A stretch of DNA of 64,000 bases from assembly GCF_029625215.1 (NCBI RefSeq), contig NZ_CP121197.1:3658001-3722000 (forward strand), read 5' to 3'. The notes under the pieces were generated by a model. It was given only the letters and a program-made list of their open reading frames with translations, was not told where the DNA came from and ran no database searches. Positions 17,349-40,670 of the stretch are shown piece after piece (within the stretch, counting starts at the first letter, position 1; every line of letters begins with the position of its first letter). Source of the stretch: Aurantibacillus circumpalustris. Its GTDB lineage: Bacteria; Bacteroidota; Bacteroidia; B-17B0; Aurantibacillaceae. Made by a program: the position numbers and the translations under genes.

Positions 17349-17726
17349 TTACATTTTATCAGCCAAAAAAGCCTTAAACTCTTGTCTTAACAAGTTAAAA
17401 TTACTTTCGAAGCTTTCTAGCATGTCTCTTTCCTTTGCGTGATCTTCTGTTTTACGATGATCGGAAGCTACAGGATTTTGTTTGACGTTTTCTGCTATCT
17501 TTTTTTCATCTAACTGAATATGCTCTCGAATATCATCTGAGTTACTCTTTTGTATGATAAATTGATTTTGAAAATGCTCAATGCTTTTACGAACATCTAA
17601 TCCAGTATTTTTACTGCTAATCTCTTCTAATTTTTCTTGCATAATTTTAAGTTCATCTTTATAAAAGGAAAGTTTGTTCAACCATTCACTATGTTCCTCG
17701 TGTTGTGTATAGATTTTAGTTTTCAT
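17349..17726 (-). CDS. hypothetical coiled-coil protein
   Basis: The 125-residue soluble protein is highly charged, predicted nearly all-helical, with two coiled-coil stretches (about 20-60 and 95-125) and a His/Lys/Glu-rich centre. It has no signal peptide, cysteine or recognised domain. It is transcribed divergently from the doxX operon, and both promoters share one pair of regulatory boxes. Co-regulation with redox-stress genes is seen in the DNA; the function is unknown. Confidence 0.75.
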   Translation of the reverse strand: MKTKIYTQHEEHSEWLNKLSFYKDELKIMQEKLEEISSKNTGLDVRKSIEHFQNQFIIQKSNSDDIREHIQLDEKKIAENVKQNPVASDHRKTEDHAKERDMLESFESNFNLLRQEFKAFLADKM

Positions 17727-17771: not shown

Positions 17772-17836
17772 CAAATATCAATCTGTTTTCGTTGTACACC
17801 TATGAGAGGAATCAGAACTCTAGATGATATTTATCA
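17772..17836 (-). promoter_or_regulatory. divergent promoter, leftward half (coiled-coil gene)
   Basis: Minus-strand -7 element GATATTTG (17779-17772, five of six consensus bases). Box TGAGAGGAATCA (17803-17814) is centred 29.5 bp upstream of it, and box TGATATTTATCA (17825-17836) lies 22 bp beyond. Confidence 0.8.
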
Positions 17837-17867
17837 GTCCTAACCTAAAGCAGCTCATTTACCTTTG
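17803..17867 (+). promoter_or_regulatory. divergent promoter, rightward half (doxX operon)
   Basis: The plus-strand -7 element TAccTTTG is at 17860-17867. Box TGATATTTATCA (17825-17836) is centred exactly 29.5 bp upstream, and box TGAGAGGAATCA (17803-17814) lies 22 bp beyond. Proximal and distal roles are swapped relative to the leftward gene. Confidence 0.85.
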
Positions 17868-17889: not shown

Positions 17890-18306
17890 ATGGATTACTC
17901 TAACGTTCAAATTGCCGAGCTACTAGTACGTGTATTTGCTGGAATTCTCTTTATGCTCCAAGGCTACGATAAATTGTTTCACGTAAAAATGTCAGGTGTT
18001 ATAAACACTTTTGTACAGGATGCTGATCGCTACAACATTCCGCGACCACTCCTTAATTTGGTAGCTTATTATACAAGTATTGTTGAATTTATTGGTGGGA
18101 TCTTATTGATTCTTGGAATATTTACATCTTACACCTTATATGCATTGGGTTTAGATTTAATCTTGGTAGGATTCGCTTTTACATATATGTCACCGATGTG
18201 GGACATGAAATTTGTTTTTCCTCGTTTAGCAATGGTTGTAACCTTACTCCTAATGCCGGAAGAATATAATTATTTTAGTTTAGATCAATTATTAACAAAA
18301 AAATAA
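17890..18306 (+). CDS. DoxX family membrane protein
   Basis: The 138-residue protein has four predicted transmembrane helices and the DoxX opening LLVRVFAGILFMLQGYDKLFH. DoxX-like proteins are quinone-linked or thiol-redox membrane proteins of mostly unknown activity. It is first in a three-gene unit with the TerB-like and SVQV-family genes (gaps of 9 and 13 bp), driven by the tandem-box promoter. Confidence 0.85.
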   Translation: MDYSNVQIAELLVRVFAGILFMLQGYDKLFHVKMSGVINTFVQDADRYNIPRPLLNLVAYYTSIVEFIGGILLILGIFTSYTLYALGLDLILVGFAFTYMSPMWDMKFVFPRLAMVVTLLLMPEEYNYFSLDQLLTKK

Positions 18307-18730: not shown

Positions 18731-19111
18731 ATGCTTATTCTAAAACCTGATAAATTATCTGTTATACAGAAACAGTTTAATGATCGGTTCCCCTTTCTTA
18801 AACTTGATTTTTTTCAACAAGTGTCAAAATCATTTCCCACTAATACAAAACCTATTAGTCTCAACGACAATTTTCTAATTCAATCTTTTCCAGATAACAA
18901 CATCCGCTTTCTCATTAATGAACACATGTCAGTTATTTTTATCGAGCACCTATTTCTTCAACACTTTGGAATCTCTGTACAAGTTTTAAGAAAATCTGGA
19001 AACACCTGGTTGCAAGTAAAACTAACCAACCATTGGACACTAAGACGACAAAACGATGAAGGGGAAGAATTGAGTGGTTTAAATTACGTCAAAAAAAGAA
19101 AAATAGACTAA
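18731..19111 (+). CDS. uncharacterised SVQVxRKSGxxWL-family protein (copy 1)
   Basis: The 126-residue soluble protein is paralogous to the product of 22481-22870. Shared landmarks are FPFLKLDFF near residue 20, a central GISVQVLRKSGNTWLQ block near 80-95, and NHWTLRRQNDEGEELS near the end. I know no function for the family. Both copies are the last gene of a unit controlled by TGA-type boxes (doxX-terB here, universal stress protein there), so a redox or stationary-stress role is inferred from context. Confidence 0.75.
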   Translation: MLILKPDKLSVIQKQFNDRFPFLKLDFFQQVSKSFPTNTKPISLNDNFLIQSFPDNNIRFLINEHMSVIFIEHLFLQHFGISVQVLRKSGNTWLQVKLTNHWTLRRQNDEGEELSGLNYVKKRKID

Positions 19112-19158: not shown

Positions 19159-20217
19159 TTACGCTTTTAAATTTGCGAGTTTTGTTCGGTTTAAAATAGT
19201 AATGCTACTTCCTTTTATTTCAATTAGCTGATCGTGTTTAAAATCACTTAAAGTTCTAATCAGCGATTCTGTGGCCGTTCCCACCATGTTTGCCAAATCT
19301 TCGCGTGAAATAGAAATACTAAAGTTCTTATCTTTATCTTGTTCAAAACGTTCCTGTAGCTTCACTAAAGCATCGGCAACTCTTTTTCGTACCGAACTAT
19401 AAGCAAGGTTTACCAATTGTTTTTCTTTTTCTGCAATATTATCTGAAAGCATTTTTATAAAAATCTTCATCACTCCCATGTTGTTATACATCAATGAAAG
19501 AAAATCTTCTTTTGGAATTAAACAAACTTCACAATCATCCATTGCTTCCGCATTCTCAGCATAGGCCCCACCTTCTAATAAAGAAGTATATCCAAAAAAA
19601 TCACCTTCTTTATAAAGGGTTGTAATTAACTCTTTTCCATACTCATGTGATCTCGTTAATTTTACTTTTCCTTTGGAAAGAAAAAACAGATAAACCGGAT
19701 CGTTTCCCTCGCTATAAATAACATCCTTCTTTTTATAGGTCTTAATTCTTCTATCCGTGGAAAGTTTTTTTAAATCGTCTACCTTTCTTACTTCCTCAAA
19801 AAATTTATTCAAACCCTCAACGTTTTTAGAAAACTCGGCCTTTAAGATCTCAGCCTTTTTAAGACGGCTTTCGATGGCATTTAATAATTCTATATCGTCA
19901 AACGGTTTACTTATGTAATCGTCAGCGCCCATTTCCATGCCTTTTCGAAAATCAAGACGTTCAGTTTTAGCAGTTAAAAAAATAAAAGGAATGCTTGCCG
20001 TTTCCTGACTTTTATTTAACAAATGAATCACGCCATAACCGTCTAACACGGGCATCATAATATCGCAGATAATCAAATCGGGTTTCATTTTTTGAGCCAG
20101 CTCTACGCCTATTTTTCCATTCTCTGCCTGTAGTACCTTGTAGTTAGCGAGTTCCAGAATTTCTGCAGTATTCTCACGAACATCATTATTATCTTCAATA
20201 ATTAAAATGGTTTTCAT
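19159..20217 (-). CDS. response regulator with CheY receiver, cNMP-like and CRP helix-turn-helix domains
   Basis: The 352-residue fusion has a receiver domain (residues 1-120, phosphoacceptor Asp52 in IICDIMMP, Lys in FISKPFDD-type loop), a CRP-like beta-roll (about 150-265) and a CRP winged helix (about 285-350). The recognition helix GTATESLIRTLSDFK keeps the Glu and Arg that contact the TGA half-site in CRP/FNR proteins. I start at the ATG 20217 rather than the TTG at 20223; it follows the kinase stop codon by 2 bp. It is the best candidate to bind the TGAN-N4-NTCA boxes around it. Confidence 0.9.
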   Translation of the reverse strand: MKTILIIEDNNDVRENTAEILELANYKVLQAENGKIGVELAQKMKPDLIICDIMMPVLDGYGVIHLLNKSQETASIPFIFLTAKTERLDFRKGMEMGADDYISKPFDDIELLNAIESRLKKAEILKAEFSKNVEGLNKFFEEVRKVDDLKKLSTDRRIKTYKKKDVIYSEGNDPVYLFFLSKGKVKLTRSHEYGKELITTLYKEGDFFGYTSLLEGGAYAENAEAMDDCEVCLIPKEDFLSLMYNNMGVMKIFIKMLSDNIAEKEKQLVNLAYSSVRKRVADALVKLQERFEQDKDKNFSISISREDLANMVGTATESLIRTLSDFKHDQLIEIKGSSITILNRTKLANLKA

Positions 20218-20219
20218 AT

Positions 20220-21437
20220 TCAATTTTGTTTTTCGTTTGGTATTCTAATATAAAAAGTAGTGCCCTCTCCGAGTTCACTTTTAAATTCAATAGTTCCATT
20301 CATGCTTTCTAAGTATTTTACCACAATATTTAAGCCAAGACCAGTACCTTGAATATTAGTGGCATTCTTTGCCCTGAAAAAACGTTCAAACAAATGTTCC
20401 TGTTCTTCTTTAGGAATACCCATGCCTTTATCGGAAACTTCAATTTTGACTGTTTTGGGATCCACTTCAACATTTATCAGTATGGATTTATTTTCGGGCG
20501 AAAACTTAATTGCATTTGAAATAAGATTTAAAAGGATATTTCGTATCATTTGTTTGTCAAGCCAGGCAATAGATTCTCCCTCATTTACAAAATCTAACTT
20601 TTGTCCAGTTTTGAGAATGCCTTGCATTTCCTGTATCACCTCTGTTATCAGTAAAGGCAGGTCTAGTTCAACCTTTCTTACAAATACTTTTCCTTCATCT
20701 AATTTTTCAGCCGAAAGAAAATCATTCAAGATTAAGGTCATGTTAGTTACAGCCGACTTTATACGCTGAACATGTTTGCCTATTTTATCATCATTTGCAC
20801 CAGCTTTGTATTTATCAACCAACGAAATAGAAGACAATATCGTACTTAAAGGCGTTCTGAATTCATGAGAAGCCATGGTAACAAAACGCGACTTCATGTC
20901 ATTAAGTCCTTTCTCCGCTTCTAATGCCAAACTTAATTTCTCCTTCGAACTCTCTAATTCTATTAAGGCTTCATGCAACACTTTTGTTCTTTCATCTACT
21001 TTTTTCTCTAAATCTTGGTTTAGCTTAATTACATTGGCTTCGTGCCTTTTACGCTCTGTGATATCAATCACAAAAGCAATTACAAAAGTTTCTTCTCCTT
21101 GTTTAAAATAAGAAAGACTGATTTCTACTGGGAATTCAGAATTATCCTTTCTTCTGGCGTACAAATCCATGTTTTTACCCATGGAACGGGCATGCGGATT
21201 TTGATTATAGTTTTCCCTATTTTTCACATGCGAGTTACTATATTTTCTAGGCACTAAATCTTCGATTACTTTTCCGAGAAGCTCGCCATCAGAAAAGCCA
21301 AAGAGACGTTCGGAACTAGGATTTGCTCTTAAAATCTCTCCCTTTTTGTTTGAAATAATAATTCCTTCAGTAGCATGCTCAAAAAGTGCGTTCAGGCTCT
21401 CCATACGAAAGTTATTTTTTGAGTCTAATTTAGACAT
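20220..21437 (-). CDS. PAS-domain sensor histidine kinase
   Basis: The 405-residue cytoplasmic kinase has one PAS domain (about 15-135), a short coiled coil, HisKA (phosphoacceptor His in MASHEFRTPLST, near 195) and HATPase (N box NLISNAIKFSP, G1 DKGMGIP, G2 GTGLGLNI). The PAS has a His (in KYSNSH) at the position that aligns by eye with the haem ligand of FixL, but this His also occurs in PAS domains not known to bind haem. There is no transmembrane segment. The kinase is directly followed by the response regulator-CRP gene. An alternative GTG start lies at 21443. Confidence 0.9.
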   Translation of the reverse strand: MSKLDSKNNFRMESLNALFEHATEGIIISNKKGEILRANPSSERLFGFSDGELLGKVIEDLVPRKYSNSHVKNRENYNQNPHARSMGKNMDLYARRKDNSEFPVEISLSYFKQGEETFVIAFVIDITERKRHEANVIKLNQDLEKKVDERTKVLHEALIELESSKEKLSLALEAEKGLNDMKSRFVTMASHEFRTPLSTILSSISLVDKYKAGANDDKIGKHVQRIKSAVTNMTLILNDFLSAEKLDEGKVFVRKVELDLPLLITEVIQEMQGILKTGQKLDFVNEGESIAWLDKQMIRNILLNLISNAIKFSPENKSILINVEVDPKTVKIEVSDKGMGIPKEEQEHLFERFFRAKNATNIQGTGLGLNIVVKYLESMNGTIEFKSELGEGTTFYIRIPNEKQN

Positions 21438-21469
21438 TTTCACCGACTGTATTTGAATTATTTAAATCA

Positions 21470-21534
21470 TGAAATTCCCACCTTTTTAGAAGGTACTGCC
21501 TGAGCTTTATCAGTAACCTATATGATTTAAATCA
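21470..21534 (-). promoter_or_regulatory. tandem CRP/FNR-type boxes upstream of the kinase/regulator operon
   Basis: Boxes TGAGCTTTATCA (21501-21512) and TGATTTAAATCA (21523-21534) are 22 bp apart. The expected -7 position on the minus strand (21477-21470) reads GAATTTCA, which is a weak match. The spacing suggests autoregulation even though the core promoter is poor. Confidence 0.65.
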
Positions 21535-21546
21535 TATCTAACTTTC

Positions 21547-21611
21547 TGAGCAAGATCATGTTTGGAACTGACAGTCATCATAAACAATTAGAATTGACAC
21601 CGCTACCTTTA
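21547..21611 (+). promoter_or_regulatory. tandem CRP/FNR-type boxes and -7 element (universal stress gene)
   Basis: TGAGCAAGATCA (21547-21558) and TGACAGTCATCA (21569-21580) are 22 bp apart. The proximal centre is 29.5 bp before TAccTTTA (21604-21611). Confidence 0.85.
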
Positions 21612-21643: not shown

Positions 21644-22468
21644 ATGAAAAACATACTTGCCGCCACCGATTTTTCACGAGCTTCTAGAAATGCTCTCAAC
21701 TATGCTGCTGAATTTGCTAAGAAAAACAAAGCAAAACTTATCCTCTTTCATTCCTATTTGCCCCCGGTAATAGTTTCGGACGTACCCGTTATTATACCTT
21801 TTGAAGAACTTGAAAAAAAAGCTATGAAGGCTCTGCACAGAATCGCTAAGAGTTTATCGTTAAAATATGGTAGGTTTTTAGAAATAGAAATGGTATGTAA
21901 GTATGGTTTACCCCTCGATGCTATTAAGAGTTTTTCAAAAGAAAGAAAAATAGATTTTATTGTGATGGGAATGCAGGGGGCTGGACTAATTGAAGAACGA
22001 TTGGTGGGCAGTACGGCCACAGAATTGATTTCCGAATCAAAAATTCCGGTTATTACAGTTGGAAAAAGAATAAAATATAAACCGCTTAAGAAAATAGTTT
22101 TTGCAAGCGATTTAAATGAGATTAACGATAAAAACATTTTAAATCCTCTAAAGGAAATTAGTGAATTATTTAAATCTCACATTTATATTTTGAATGTAAT
22201 TAAAGACGATAAAACGCTGCCAACAATAAGCGAGGCGGTAGCCGGTATAAAACTCGAAAATGTCTTAAAAGGCTATAAACACAGTTTTTGTTCAGTTGAA
22301 AATAAAAACGTTGCGGATGGCATAAACGCCTTTATTAAAAAAAATAAAATGGATTTAGTGGTAATGATGCCACGTAAACACTCGTTTTTTAAATCTTTAT
22401 TTAAGGAACGTGAAACTAAAAAGGTGGCATTTCATACCACTGTACCCATGCTCACTTTACAAGATTAA
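21644..22468 (+). CDS. universal stress protein, tandem UspA domains
   Basis: The 274-residue protein has two Usp domains. The first (1-140) is complete, with ILAATDFSRASRNALNYAAEFA and the ATP-binding GMQGAGLIEERLVGSTATELI motif (G-2x-G-9x-G type). The second (about 150-274) is degenerate and lacks the clear nucleotide loop. Tandem Usp proteins are induced by respiratory arrest and starvation in many bacteria. It is followed after 12 bp by the SVQV-family gene copy 2 and is divergent from the kinase/regulator operon, with both promoters carrying tandem boxes. Confidence 0.92.
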   Translation: MKNILAATDFSRASRNALNYAAEFAKKNKAKLILFHSYLPPVIVSDVPVIIPFEELEKKAMKALHRIAKSLSLKYGRFLEIEMVCKYGLPLDAIKSFSKERKIDFIVMGMQGAGLIEERLVGSTATELISESKIPVITVGKRIKYKPLKKIVFASDLNEINDKNILNPLKEISELFKSHIYILNVIKDDKTLPTISEAVAGIKLENVLKGYKHSFCSVENKNVADGINAFIKKNKMDLVVMMPRKHSFFKSLFKERETKKVAFHTTVPMLTLQD

Positions 22469-22480
22469 TCTATTCAAATT

Positions 22481-22870
22481 ATGACCATAACTATCAACGA
22501 CCACAGAAAGATCCACGCGATCCAGGAAGAATTTACCTCAGTCTTTCCATTTTTAAAACTCGAGTTTTTTTCAAAACCGCATACACAGGGCGGCGCTTCA
22601 CCCAAAAAGCTGATGAAAAACAGTAGTCACACTTTAGGCGAATGCAGAACCATTCATAATAATGGTAACATATCGATTACACCGCAAATGACAGTTAACG
22701 ATCTGGAACAACGTTTTAGTGATGTGTATGGCTTAAGTGTACAGGTATTCAGAAAATCTGGTAGCAGTTGGCTTGAAACAACCGTGACCGATGCCTGGAC
22801 TTTAGAAGAACAAAATCAGCAGGGAGAATCTTTAAGTCACGCGTTTAGTACTCGACCTGAGAAAAGATAA
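22481..22870 (+). CDS. uncharacterised SVQVxRKSGxxWL-family protein (copy 2)
   Basis: The 129-residue paralogue of 18731-19111 has FPFLKLEFF near residue 22, GLSVQVFRKSGSSWLE near 84-99 and DAWTLEEQNQQGESLS after it. The central 30 residues differ between copies. No signal peptide or membrane segment. It is co-transcribed with the universal stress gene. Function unknown. Confidence 0.75.
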   Translation: MTITINDHRKIHAIQEEFTSVFPFLKLEFFSKPHTQGGASPKKLMKNSSHTLGECRTIHNNGNISITPQMTVNDLEQRFSDVYGLSVQVFRKSGSSWLETTVTDAWTLEEQNQQGESLSHAFSTRPEKR

Positions 22871-23076: not shown

Positions 23077-23211
23077 TCAAGTAGAAACTTCAGGTACAAA
23101 AGTTTTGTAAACGATTTGCTCGTTTCGCCAATTGGCTATTGAAATATACCCGCCTGGATTAATCTCCCATACATTCTTTTGCAACGATTGTAATTTACTC
23201 AAAACTGACAT
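23077..23211 (-). CDS. possible 44-residue small protein
   Basis: A minus-strand frame from ATG 23211 to TGA 23077 encodes MSVLSKLQSLQKNVWEINPG and continues with a polar, Trp-containing sequence that looks protein-like. No family recognised. Its start codon lies inside the distal regulatory box of the PAS kinase promoter. It may be a remnant of a longer gene rather than an expressed one. Confidence 0.3.
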   Translation of the reverse strand: MSVLSKLQSLQKNVWEINPGGYISIANWRNEQIVYKTFVPEVST

Positions 23212-23270
23212 TAATCACCTAGCGTTCTGACCTTCATCAGACATCACTTGCCTTTCCAAACCTACTTTTG
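23206..23270 (+). promoter_or_regulatory. tandem CRP/FNR-type boxes and -7 element (PAS kinase gene)
   Basis: TGACATTAATCA (23206-23217) and TGACCTTCATCA (23228-23239) are 22 bp apart. The proximal centre is 29.5 bp before TActTTTG (23263-23270). Confidence 0.88.
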
Positions 23271-23317: not shown

Positions 23318-25432
23318 ATGGGCAGAATCGAAAGCAGCGTTCAAAAATTATTTCAGAATAAAATATCGTTCATTTATCGGCTCTCAGCTTGCCTCCTTAT
23401 AGCTATCACAGCAACGCTTGCAATTTTTGATTTGTCTTCTGTTCTGTTTCTAAAACTCGCATTTACGGCAATTCTTGTGGGTGAAATAATCGTTGCAAGT
23501 TTATCTTATATCAAAGTGCGTCGAGATTCTGTTATCAGTTCTGAATCAAAAGCAGAGTTAGAAAAAACTTTAAGAGAAATTTCCGATTACAAATATGCGC
23601 TGGAGGAATCTTCAATCGTTGCCATTACCAATCAAAAAGGCATTATTATGTATGCCAACGATAACTTTTGTAAAATTTCTCAATATAGTCGTGAAGAATT
23701 AATTGGAAAAGATCACCGCATTGTCAACTCAGGTCATCATTCTGCCGAATTCATTCAAAATTTATGGAAGACGATTGCAAGAGGTAAAATCTGGAAGGGC
23801 GAATTGAAAAACAAAGCGAAAGATGGAAGCTATTACTGGGTTGATACCAGCATTGTTCCGTTCCTGGATAATAATGGCAAACCATATCAATATCTGGTAA
23901 TCCGTTCAGACATTTCAAAACGTAAAAATTCAGAAGAGGCGCTTAGAATCTCAAAATCAAATCTTAAAACAATTTTTGAGAATACGGATAGCGGTTACAT
24001 TTTAATGAATGATACGTTTGAAATTGTGTCCTTTAACAAACTCGCTGAAAAATTTTCCGTTCATAGTTTTGGCCTTTCAGGTACAGTAGGAAAGTGTATA
24101 TTGGATTACTTTCCGGCACATAGAAAAGATTTGTTAAAAGGGTATATGTGTAAAGTTTTGCAGGGCGAAAAAGTACAATATGAAATAAGCTACCCACAAA
24201 GCGACGGGAAGATTACTTGGTTTGCCGTTTCACTCTTTCCAATTAATTGTGTAGAAAAAACGTGCAGAGGCCTTATTATGAAAATATCAGATATTACCCA
24301 GAAAAAACTTGCTGAAAAGAAAATTAAAGAAGCTGCTGCCAATCTATCAGCTATTATAGAAAACACCGACACTGCTATTTATTCACTTGATAACAATCTG
24401 AGGTATGTTACATTTAATAAAAGACTCAGATACCTATTAAAACAAGTCTATAACTTAGAAATTAAAGAGGGTGATCATGTTTTTAGTTTTCTGGAAAAAC
24501 TGGAACCAGAAGAAGTGTCGTACTGGGAAAATGTGTATGCTGAAGCGTTGAGCGGCAAAACACTTAAATTCGAAAAAGAATTTAAAATTCCGGGCTTCGA
24601 AAGCCATATTAGTTTTTCAATTTATCCTATTTTGGAAAGTGGAACCGTTATTGGACTTTCTTGTTTTACACAAGATATTACCGAACAAAAAAAAGAAGAG
24701 CTTCACAAGAAAAAAATGGCACAGGATTTAATTCAGCGTAATAAAGGGCTTGAACAATTTTCATATATCATTTCTCATAATCTGAGGGCTCCTGTTGCTA
24801 ACATACTTGGTTTGTCGCATGTATTACGAGAAAATAATCTCACACTCACAGAAAAGAAAAAATCTGAAGACTACTTATTTACAGCCGTAGAAAAATTAGA
24901 CACCATCGTAAAAGATCTAAATCACATTGTAGATATTAAAAGGGATATTAGTGAAAAAAGAGAAGCGCTTACTTTTTCTGAAATTGTTAAAAATATTGAG
25001 ACCAGCATATATGATCAAATTGAAAAAAACAATGTGGAGATTTCTACTGATTTTTCGGCGATTGATAATTTCTATTCCATCAAGGGTTACTTTCACAATA
25101 TTTTTTACAATCTAATCACAAACAGCATTAAATACTCGCAGCCCTTTTCAGTTCCAAAAATTAACATCAGAAGTTCTATTGAAGATGGAAAACTACATCT
25201 GTTTTTTAATGACAATGGAATAGGTATTGACCTGGAAAGACATAATGAAAAACTATTTGGACTGTATAACCGATTTCACATACATACTGAGGGAAAGGGA
25301 ATGGGATTATTTTTAGTAAAAACGCAAGTTGAAACTCTTGGTGGAAAAATAACTGTTAGCAGCAGCGTAAACAAAGGAACAGAATTTGTGTTGCAATTTG
25401 ATTTGGAAAGCGACATGAAAATTGCTGGTTAG
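23318..25432 (+). CDS. membrane-bound multi-PAS sensor histidine kinase
   Basis: The 704-residue kinase has two N-terminal transmembrane helices (about 20-70), PAS 1 (about 95-205), PAS 2 (about 210-335) and PAS 3 (about 340-460). The HisKA domain has His487 in ISHNLRAPVANI, and a HATPase domain (NSIKYSQP, NDNGIGID, GKGMGLFLVK) completes it. The SHNLRAP phosphoacceptor box is common in Bacteroidota PAS kinases. PAS 1 includes the DITKRK-like C-cap (SDISKRK). No partner regulator gene is adjacent. A tandem-box promoter implies that it is made under the same conditions as the universal stress protein. Confidence 0.9.
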   Translation: MGRIESSVQKLFQNKISFIYRLSACLLIAITATLAIFDLSSVLFLKLAFTAILVGEIIVASLSYIKVRRDSVISSESKAELEKTLREISDYKYALEESSIVAITNQKGIIMYANDNFCKISQYSREELIGKDHRIVNSGHHSAEFIQNLWKTIARGKIWKGELKNKAKDGSYYWVDTSIVPFLDNNGKPYQYLVIRSDISKRKNSEEALRISKSNLKTIFENTDSGYILMNDTFEIVSFNKLAEKFSVHSFGLSGTVGKCILDYFPAHRKDLLKGYMCKVLQGEKVQYEISYPQSDGKITWFAVSLFPINCVEKTCRGLIMKISDITQKKLAEKKIKEAAANLSAIIENTDTAIYSLDNNLRYVTFNKRLRYLLKQVYNLEIKEGDHVFSFLEKLEPEEVSYWENVYAEALSGKTLKFEKEFKIPGFESHISFSIYPILESGTVIGLSCFTQDITEQKKEELHKKKMAQDLIQRNKGLEQFSYIISHNLRAPVANILGLSHVLRENNLTLTEKKKSEDYLFTAVEKLDTIVKDLNHIVDIKRDISEKREALTFSEIVKNIETSIYDQIEKNNVEISTDFSAIDNFYSIKGYFHNIFYNLITNSIKYSQPFSVPKINIRSSIEDGKLHLFFNDNGIGIDLERHNEKLFGLYNRFHIHTEGKGMGLFLVKTQVETLGGKITVSSSVNKGTEFVLQFDLESDMKIAG

Positions 25433-25484: not shown

Positions 25485-25549
25485 TGACTATTATCATGTG
25501 CCTAAATGACAATCATCACTATGGTTGGTGTGACTCTACTTTAATTTTG
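25485..25549 (+). promoter_or_regulatory. tandem CRP/FNR-type boxes and -7 element (arsR-like gene)
   Basis: TGACTATTATCA (25485-25496) and TGACAATCATCA (25507-25518) are 22 bp apart. The proximal centre is 29.5 bp before TAatTTTG (25542-25549). Confidence 0.88.
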
Positions 25550-25650
25550 ATGTAATTTATTTTTTAGTTTGCTAGATTTTGCCTTTAGGAGAAATGCAAA
25601 GATTCAACGACTTAAAAATGAAACTAAAATTAATAGAGTAGACACGCTTA

Positions 25651-25967
25651 TGAATTCACAAAGAAATTGGTTTAATACAAAAGAATTAATTGAGTTAACC
25701 GCCATGCTAAAGTCACTTGGTCATTCTTCACGAATTTCAATTATGTATCTCCTTTGTAACAATACCGAGAAAAAAATGACCGTAAAAACCATTTACGAAC
25801 TATTAAAAATGCCACAACCGGTAATCTCAAGACATTTAGGCATTCTAAGAAACAGCGGTTTAATAAACCGCCTTCTTGTAGGTAATCACACCTATTACAA
25901 ATTAAATGAAAAGAATGTCCTTGCTCGGAAAATCGCTAACTGCTTTTCATCCATAGATAAACCCTAA
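25651..25967 (+). CDS. ArsR family winged-helix regulator
   Basis: The ArsR-type domain covers the protein: ELTAMLKSLGHSSRISIMYLL, recognition region LKMPQPVISRHLGILRNSGLINR, wing NHTYYKLNEKN. The ELCVCDL-type metal-binding cysteines of ArsR/SmtB are absent, so the inducer is probably not a metal bound there. I prefer ATG 25651 (105 residues). A longer frame from a TTG at 25569 adds a basic tail with little support. A decayed TauE/SafE permease gene directly follows, and this regulator may once have controlled it. Confidence 0.85.
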
Positions 25968-29141: not shown

Positions 29142-29816
29142 CTAAGGCATTAACCTTACCATTTTCCAGTGCTCAGTTTTATTATTTTCTTGTAAAGAAT
29201 ATTTTATACGATCGTGTAAACGACTTGCCCTTCCTTGCCAAAATTCAAAGGAAACAGGTACCAACACATAACCACCCCAGTGATTAGGACGCGGCACTTT
29301 TTTATCTTTATACTTCAACAGTGTTTCTTCATAACGCTCATCTAAGGCGGCGCGATTTTCTATTCTTGAACTTTGCTGCGAGGCCCAAGCTCCTACTTTA
29401 CTTTCGAAAGGTCGTGAACGAAAATACAATTCAGATTCTCCGATTGGAAGAAACCTTATTTCGCCTTGCATTCTTACTTGACGTTCGAGCTCTTTCCAAA
29501 AAAATAAAATACTAGCCTTGGAATTATTTTTTATTTGATTGCCTTTTGAACTTTCGTAATTGGTATAAAAAGTGAAACCACCGTAACTTAAATTTCTTAA
29601 CAACACAATTCTTGAATCGGGCATACCGTTTTCATCCACGGTAGACACAGTCATGGCATTGGCATACATAGAATCCTTTTCAACAGCCTCTTTAAACCAG
29701 AGTTCAAATTGGTCAAAAGGATCATTACAACAATCCTGCTCTAACAAAACATGTTGCACATAGTCTTTTCGTGTTTCTTTTAAAATGCGGTTTATCTCGA
29801 ATTTTTTCTCTTTCAT
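29142..29816 (-). CDS. pdxH: pyridoxamine 5'-phosphate oxidase
   Basis: The 224-residue FMN enzyme matches PdxH end to end: SRIVLLRNLSYGGFTFYTNY (FMN phosphate contacts), RQVRMQGEIRFLP, SRPFESKVGAWASQQS, and the C-terminal FEFWQGRASRLHDRIKY signature with the active-site Arg and His. It oxidises pyridoxine or pyridoxamine phosphate to PLP, using oxygen as acceptor in known enzymes. Expression under a putative low-oxygen regulator alongside a PLP decarboxylase is noteworthy. Confidence 0.95.
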   Translation of the reverse strand: MKEKKFEINRILKETRKDYVQHVLLEQDCCNDPFDQFELWFKEAVEKDSMYANAMTVSTVDENGMPDSRIVLLRNLSYGGFTFYTNYESSKGNQIKNNSKASILFFWKELERQVRMQGEIRFLPIGESELYFRSRPFESKVGAWASQQSSRIENRAALDERYEETLLKYKDKKVPRPNHWGGYVLVPVSFEFWQGRASRLHDRIKYSLQENNKTEHWKMVRLMP

Positions 29817-29835: not shown

Positions 29836-29900
29836 CAAAATAACAAAAGAAAACAATGTGTGCATGTGATTAAGTTCATTGTGGCTAATGATTAAAATCA
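29836..29900 (-). promoter_or_regulatory. tandem CRP/FNR-type boxes and -7 element (pdxH)
   Basis: The minus-strand -7 element TTatTTTG (29843-29836) matches five of six bases. Box TGATTAAGTTCA (29867-29878) is centred 29.5 bp upstream of it, and box TGATTAAAATCA (29889-29900) lies 22 bp beyond. The proximal box has one imperfect half-site. Confidence 0.8.
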
Positions 29901-31046: not shown

Positions 31047-31165
31047 TTTTATAGGTTTACAAAATTATCTTAAAAAATTGTTCATGCGCCGTACCTCTCA
31101 ATGAAGCACCTGAAAAACTTTTAAGTTTATCGTACAAATTTAAGGTTAAAAATAGGGTTGTTGTA

Positions 31166-31208
31166 TGACATATGTCACACACATCCCTGAGAACCATCAT
31201 TAACTTTG
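31166..31208 (+). promoter_or_regulatory. CRP/FNR-type box and -7 element (DUF2892-ccoI operon)
   Basis: TGACATATGTCA (31166-31177), a perfect palindrome, is centred exactly 29.5 bp before TAacTTTG (31201-31208). No distal box. It would drive the DUF2892, HMA, J-protein, unknown and ccoI genes. Confidence 0.85.
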
Positions 31209-31241
31209 TTAATAAAGCAAACTAACTTTGAAGAAAAAAAT

Positions 31242-40363: not shown

Positions 40364-40428
40364 TGACAAAAATCATATTTCCTCCTGCGCATTGTCATAA
40401 GGCATAAAGTCGTTCTCAGGTATTTTTG
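40364..40428 (+). promoter_or_regulatory. tandem CRP/FNR-type boxes and -7 element (cbb3 operon)
   Basis: The distal box TGACAAAAATCA is at 40364-40375. The proximal box TGCGCATTGTCA (40386-40397) has one degenerate half. They are 22 bp apart. The proximal centre is exactly 29.5 bp before TAttTTTG (40421-40428), 9 bp from the ccoS start. Confidence 0.82.
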
Positions 40429-40436
40429 GGTTCGAA

Positions 40437-40670
40437 ATGAGTGTTATCATCATCTTAATTACAGCCAGTTTACTAATTGCCATCGGTTTTCTCGTGGCCT
40501 TTATCTGGTCGGTGAAAGCCGGGCAATACGAAGACGATTATACCCCTTCGGTAAGAATGTTGTTTGAGAACACCGTCGCACAAAAAACTTCTAAAAACTC
40601 CGAATTAGAAACAAAGAACTTGAAACCAGAAACAAGAAACAAACAAGAAATAAAAACACTATGGAAATAG
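40437..40670 (+). CDS. ccoS: cbb3 oxidase maturation protein CcoS
   Basis: The 77-residue protein has one transmembrane helix (residues 3-25), the typical FIWSVKAGQYEDDYTPSVRMLFE motif of CcoS and a longer hydrophilic tail. CcoS is needed for cofactor insertion into CcoN. It overlaps the ccoN-ccoO gene by 10 bp and is the first gene of the operon after the accessory block. Confidence 0.92.
   Translation: MSVIIILITASLLIAIGFLVAFIWSVKAGQYEDDYTPSVRMLFENTVAQKTSKNSELETKNLKPETRNKQEIKTLWK

Follow-up and report, generated by a model that had tools for sequence, protein, structure and literature searches.

A PAS histidine kinase and a receiver-CRP/FNR fusion regulator associated with a tandem-box promoter grammar in Bacteroidota

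The stretch of DNA analyzed here (the window) is 64 kb long and corresponds to positions 3658001-3722000 of a 4.60-Mb single-contig genome. Coordinates are those of the window unless they are called genome positions. The locus under study consists of two genes on the minus strand, where the 3' end of the kinase gene overlaps the start of the regulator gene, a divergent gene for a universal stress protein (USP), and two tandem operators:

19159-20223, minus strand: response regulator-CRP/FNR fusion (Pfam: Response_reg 6-118, cNMP_binding 161-246, HTH_Crp_2 280-351)
20220-21443, minus strand: cytosolic PAS histidine kinase (Pfam: PAS ~17-130, HisKA 183-251, HATPase_c 296-404)
21180-21182, minus strand: codon of PAS Met88 (+16 from His72), at the position of FG214 Met172, a candidate distal ligand
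21228-21230, minus strand: codon of PAS His72 (ORF numbering), at the haem proximal-ligand position of FixL and FG214
21501-21534, minus strand: tandem operator facing the kinase-regulator operon, with boxes TGAGCTTTATCA (21501-21512) and TGATTTAAATCA (21523-21534)
21547-21580, plus strand: second tandem operator, for the divergent USP gene, with boxes at 21547 and 21569 and a -7 element TACCTTTA at 21604-21611 (5/6)
21644-22468, plus strand: universal stress protein with two Usp domains (Pfam), a predicted target

A preliminary description of this locus, made from the sequence, had read the regulator as a receiver joined to a CRP-type module with a recognition helix that keeps the Glu and Arg for TGA, and both points are borne out by the Pfam domains and by the helix itself, GTATESLIR, whose Glu and Arg are expected to read TGA. 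The likely start of the regulator is the ATG at 20217. Numbered from this codon, the phospho-acceptor Asp is D52, which is kept across an alignment of 13 homologues together with the invariant E8, D9 and K104 and the nearly invariant T82; the phospho-acceptor, acidic pair and Lys of a two-component response regulator are thus all present. The output half has the CRP/FNR family order of a cNMP-binding fold followed by HTH_Crp with Glu and Arg in the recognition helix, and it resembles the Fe-S-type FNR proteins that carry the same helix. The regulator is nevertheless outside both the FixJ family, its output being HTH_Crp_2 (Pfam) and not a LuxR/NarL-type HTH, and the Fe-S FNR family, the receiver occupying the place of the N-terminal cysteine cluster segment. 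A Cys at the VCxIP position, which we take to be equivalent to E. coli FNR Cys122, is present in the window regulator and in 11 of the 26 fusions scored.

The kinase ORF as listed begins with GTG at 21443, with an ATG two codons further on. Its PAS His had been matched to the FixL haem ligand by eye, and an HMMER alignment agrees; the ligand-position His is conserved in 62 of the 65 kinases having a residue there. The best PDB sequence matches of the PAS domain, FixL (2e-11) and FG214 (10jx; 3e-11), are both haem PAS domains. For structural comparison we used the model folded with a 25-sequence alignment (pLDDT 91, as opposed to 55 without an alignment). The top structural match of this model was the FG214 haem PAS (Z 17.3), followed by FixL and EcDos, and nearly all of the top 20 matches were haem-PAS entries. 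The window kinase therefore shares with FixL a PAS domain with the proximal His, and its predicted model has the haem-PAS fold with this His as found in FG214, EcDos and FixL. These sequence and model comparisons indicate that the window PAS is probably of the haem-sensor type, closest to FG214, FixL and EcDos.

The likely ligands were considered by comparison with these relatives. In FG214 of Fimbriimonas ginsengisoli, a one-component HTH-PAS protein with chiefly bis-His ligation, His156 is the proximal ligand, His175 the distal one and Met172 a possible alternative distal participant (PDB 10jx, PMC13060918). FG214 is the closest solved PAS by fold and shares the proximal His and the Met at +16, while the window PAS differs in being part of a histidine kinase and in missing the second His. 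The distal Arg of FixL (R220 in B. japonicum FixL) is absent from the window PAS, which has a Met there in an ungapped alignment to FixL 1d06, and this position varies among the kinase homologues. With His72 and Met88 both invariant in the 25-sequence PAS alignment and no conservation of the FixL distal Arg, our best guess is ligation by His only or by His/Met. An alternative is that the PAS carries no haem and senses flavin, a small ligand or redox in another way, the His being a common residue of its subfamily. The motif H-x3-R-x2-Y-x3-P-x2-R-x-M-G may indeed mark a broad PAS subfamily, flavin PAS domains (LOV, NifL) match the fold of the model too, at lower Z, a minority of the paired kinases at 80 homologous loci bear a different PAS, and the lack of the FixL distal Arg would fit as well. 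However, the two best sequence matches are haem PAS domains, and the top structural match has the same His, with a Met at +16, near the haem. We rate a haem-free PAS as the lesser possibility, and the window PAS would be expected to bind haem.

Regulator homologues (E<=1e-60) were found in 41 of 60 relatives and, phylum-wide, in 43 of 296 genomes, all of those found belonging to the class of the window genome. The expected co-occurrence of the pair was evident from gene order: of 80 homologous loci, from Chitinophaga, Dyadobacter, Pontibacter, Runella and other genera, 75 have the kinase gene immediately before that of the regulator. These named homologues also place the window genome in the phylum Bacteroidota. 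Elsewhere in the window genome (genome positions 3770658-3772185, plus strand), a PAS kinase like that of the window is followed by a receiver-only protein without a Crp module, which is 52% identical to the window receiver.

Tandem boxes had been noted at the operon promoter. Both are present at 21501-21534, 22 bp apart, and they belong to a far stronger pattern than had been noted, namely TGA-N6-TCA-N10-TGA-N6-TCA-N23-TANNTTTG, where TANNTTTG is a Bacteroidota-type -7 element. This grammar was analyzed genome-wide by pattern searches and in fetched stretches. Intergenic TGA-N6-TCA boxes of the window are mostly paired at 22 bp, and exact tandems occur 7 times in the window versus 0 times in 100 first-order Markov sequences, and 21 times in the genome versus 0 for reversed-pattern controls. 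A 182-kb region that includes the window has 24 box pairs no more than 60 bp apart, and 18 of them were spaced by exactly 22 bp, which was the sole peak; the same spacing was found for 78 of 130 such pairs in 80 independently fetched loci (controls 0-2). Single ATGA-N6-TCAT boxes were uninformative genome-wide (147 versus 128 in the control), the signal being in the tandem only. All tandem sites with at most one mismatch in the examined regions were intergenic, often ~50 bp ahead of an ORF.

The distance to the -7 element is equally fixed. A TANNTTTG match of at least 5/6 was present exactly 23 nt past the tandem in 31 of 40 oriented sites, with no other offset exceeding 3. Among the exact tandems, 18 of 21 had the -7 element at exactly +23 (mean of the other offsets, 0.5 hits), and 28 of the 40 perfect TANNTTTG hits in the 80 fetched loci were at +23. 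A search for the complete box-22-box-23-(-7) arrangement with up to one mismatch returned 29 places, all within the gene clusters described below, and the reversed control gave 8 hits in total at up to three mismatches. In addition to the sites listed above, the window contains the following:

17772-17836: same boxes as 17803-17867, one mismatch, facing 17349-17726 (minus strand)
17803-17867, plus strand: full grammar site, 0 mismatches, before a DoxX-family gene (17890-18306)
23206-23270, plus strand: full grammar site, 0 mismatches, before a multi-PAS kinase gene (23318-25432)
25485-25549, plus strand: full grammar site, 0 mismatches, before an ArsR-type regulator gene (25569-25967)
29836-29900, minus strand: grammar site, 1 mismatch, before a pyridoxamine-phosphate-oxidase-like (PNPOx-like) gene (29142-29816)
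31135-31230: one tandem operator flanked on either side by a perfect -7 (31135-31199, minus strand; 31166-31230, plus strand), predicted divergent promoters
40364-40428, plus strand: grammar site, 1 mismatch, perfect -7, upstream of the ccoNO-ccoP-ccoG operon, which starts at 40661

The predicted targets include cbb3 oxidase and USPs. Exact tandems cluster at three regions of the genome: the cbb3/HemN/USP region, a USP/Hsp20/Kdp island and a nitric/nitrous-oxide-reductase-like locus. HemN is encoded close to the cbb3 operon in the window, and the HemN operon is preceded by single boxes only. The second cluster (3744-3800 kb) includes genes for BON, Hsp20, BLUF, nucleoside phosphorylase/ribose-phosphate pyrophosphokinase, PPDK and KdpA; several of its ORFs also look like USPs. 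The third (2060-2079 kb) includes NadA, fasciclin, a fatty-acid desaturase and a multi-PAS kinase, together with ORFs that, read by eye, we take to be norBC, nosZ and a truncated haemoglobin. Several tandems are flanked by a good -7 on both sides and probably drive divergent genes; outside the window, one tandem operator with a good -7 element 23 nt away on each side was also seen at genome positions 3773029-3773124 and 3978504-3978599.

The pair itself had been suggested to be autoregulated. Its operon promoter does carry the boxes, but the -7 position (21470-21477, GAATTTCA) is poor, with 3/6 at the diagnostic distance, and autoregulation is therefore likely but weak. Of 75 homologous kinase operons, just 19 were found to have an exact tandem upstream; in 14 of the 19 the -7 scores at least 5/6, and all but one of the 14 score exactly 5/6. 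Judged from these promoters, part of the family probably has weak positive autoregulation.

The distribution of tandem sites across genomes bears on the identity of the protein that reads them, and the sites were found to track the regulator. Within the genus, at least two tandem sites were present in 23 of 26 genomes with the regulator versus 1 of 10 without it (Fisher, p=2e-5), and within the class in 28 of 42 versus 4 of 30 (p=9e-6); these p-values are inflated by shared ancestry and overstate the independence of the genomes. The association is not exclusive in either direction. Of the genomes in the class that have the regulator, one in three falls short of two exact tandem sites. These are mainly from family f27, whose members G109, G159, G163, G174, G186, G190, G238, G254, G282 and G290 have the regulator and no exact 22-bp tandem; f27 genomes may use single boxes or another spacing. 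Conversely, boxes in genomes without the pair, which had been named as an observation that would speak against the proposal, do exist, although mostly together with an FNR that has the GTATE helix. Among 13 box-bearing genomes without the fusion, eight (G038, G040, G052, G075, G167, G206, G327 and G329) carry a free Crp with a GTATE(S/T)xIR helix and an N-terminal CxxC, and in five of these eight a tandem box (at most one mismatch) adjoins the gene for this protein. No Crp with the exact GTATE(S/T)xIR helix was seen in G010 and G192, and no free Crp passed the cut in G088, G197 and G326. Of 11 free CxxC proteins scored, 10 have a Cys at the VCxIP position; the remaining one did not fit the search expression. 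The idea that free GTATE-type FNRs always accompany tandem boxes was rejected, as several genomes encode an FNR of this kind but lack any exact tandem.

These data can also be read to mean that another Crp/Fnr protein of the window genome occupies the boxes, and that the window regulator has different or narrower targets. A second receiver-CRP fusion (genome positions 3778270-3779328, minus strand; 42% identical) is encoded within the second box cluster, where a grammar site with three mismatches is found 27 bp upstream of it, receiver-less Crps are present in the genome, and boxes occur without a fusion in G206 and G327, for example. On the other hand, the recognition helix of the paralogue, GISPESVSR, is divergent, the three scored (best-scoring) receiver-less Crps have GTARE, GTAKE and GTSLE helices and no CxxC, GTATE is common to the fusion and to the free FNR-type proteins of most fusion-less box-bearing genomes, and close relatives without the fusion are mostly without boxes. 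A different reader therefore seems unlikely to us, and the window regulator is the putative occupant of the boxes. Its description as a master switch is plausible, but must be qualified by the presence of this paralogue and of at least three Crp proteins that have no receiver.

The domains, the operator and -7 grammar, the co-occurrence and the gene adjacency make up a real and strongly patterned system, the function of which we infer. We hold it to be fairly probable that a haem-PAS-type kinase and a receiver-CRP activator run a low-oxygen/stress regulon via 22-bp tandem boxes at a fixed distance from the -7 element. The kinase, with its probable haem sensor, would respond to oxygen or redox and transfer phosphate to the receiver-CRP regulator, dimers of which would bind the two TGA-N6-TCA boxes with centres 22 bp, or two helical turns, apart. 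If the Bacteroidota -7 element spans ~-11 to -4, the box centres would be near -41 and -63, that is, at a class II position and at that of a second dimer two turns upstream. As a class II activator, the proximal dimer could then touch RNA polymerase, and cooperation with the distal dimer would be possible. That the boxes instead serve repression, or are two independent operators, we consider improbable: some Crp-family proteins repress and single boxes too are found upstream of genes, but the exact 22-bp phasing and fixed 23 nt to the -7 element recur at many unrelated promoters, and boxes upstream of the -7 element fit activation. The regulon of this cooperative activator would comprise low-oxygen respiration (cbb3 oxidase and genes resembling nitric- and nitrous-oxide reductases), universal stress proteins, Hsp20, K+ uptake and nucleotide/PEP metabolism, with the regulator operon itself as a weak target.

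In a tree, the fusions group as a single clade (100/100), which falls near some of the free CxxC proteins with modest support (81/89). This placement, and the free CxxC FNRs with the same helix in fusion-less box genomes, suggest that the receiver replaced the Fe-S segment of an FNR. By extension, an Fe-S FNR may have been rewired such that a receiver took the place of the cluster segment and a haem-PAS kinase does the sensing, while helix and grammar were kept and phosphorylation assembles the two dimers as a unit; we propose this tentatively, as somewhat short of an even chance. If true, the regulon changed its sensor without changing its promoters, and the system would be a case where the sensor module appears swapped while the operator is kept.

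The pair had been likened to a FixL/FixJ-FixK cascade collapsed into two proteins, and as a working analogy it can be said to act like a FixL-FixK axis; as homology the comparison fails on the missing distal Arg, the conserved Met and the FNR-like output. Like the rhizobial system, it has a PAS kinase with the haem-ligand His, a receiver protein and a CRP/FNR-type activator of cbb3 genes, and its boxes are akin to the TTGAT-N4-ATCAA type (anaerobox, PMC7888657). It differs in that receiver and Crp module are one protein without a FixJ-type HTH, the PAS has no distal Arg, and the operator is a 22-bp tandem with a Bacteroidota -7. FNR/FnrN-type oxygen regulators share the fold, the kind of box and similar target genes, and free Bacteroidota FNR relatives carry CxxC and the GTATE helix, whereas the window regulator has a receiver instead of the N-terminal Cys segment and its activity is presumably set by the kinase. 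In the DosR dormancy regulon of mycobacteria, a haem-sensor kinase and response regulator likewise control USPs, Hsp20 and related genes, but DosR has a LuxR-type HTH where the window output module is of the CRP/FNR type.

A literature search, in which subscription journals were thinly covered, returned no prior description of the pair or the 22-bp grammar, and for Bacteroidota other than the gut genera, low-oxygen control has to our knowledge been little described. From their sequences, kinase and regulator appear to switch on a low-oxygen/stress gene set in many Bacteroidota. The conserved pair, together with a promoter code so precise that sequence alone can predict the targets, provides a directly testable regulon, in which cbb3 oxidase and nitric-/nitrous-oxide-reductase-like genes are predicted members.

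Some further genes near the boxes deserve mention. Two small proteins encoded in the box cluster of the window (18731-19111 and 22481-22870) have no Pfam match and look mutually related (SVQVLRKSG and SVQVFRKSG). A 601-aa protein, also without a Pfam match, is encoded beside the norBC-like genes and faces a tandem box (genome positions 2058384-2060189, minus strand). Finally, the gene for the BLUF blue-light sensor (genome positions 3750696-3751157, minus strand) adjoins a tandem operator, a hint that the targets may include a light input.
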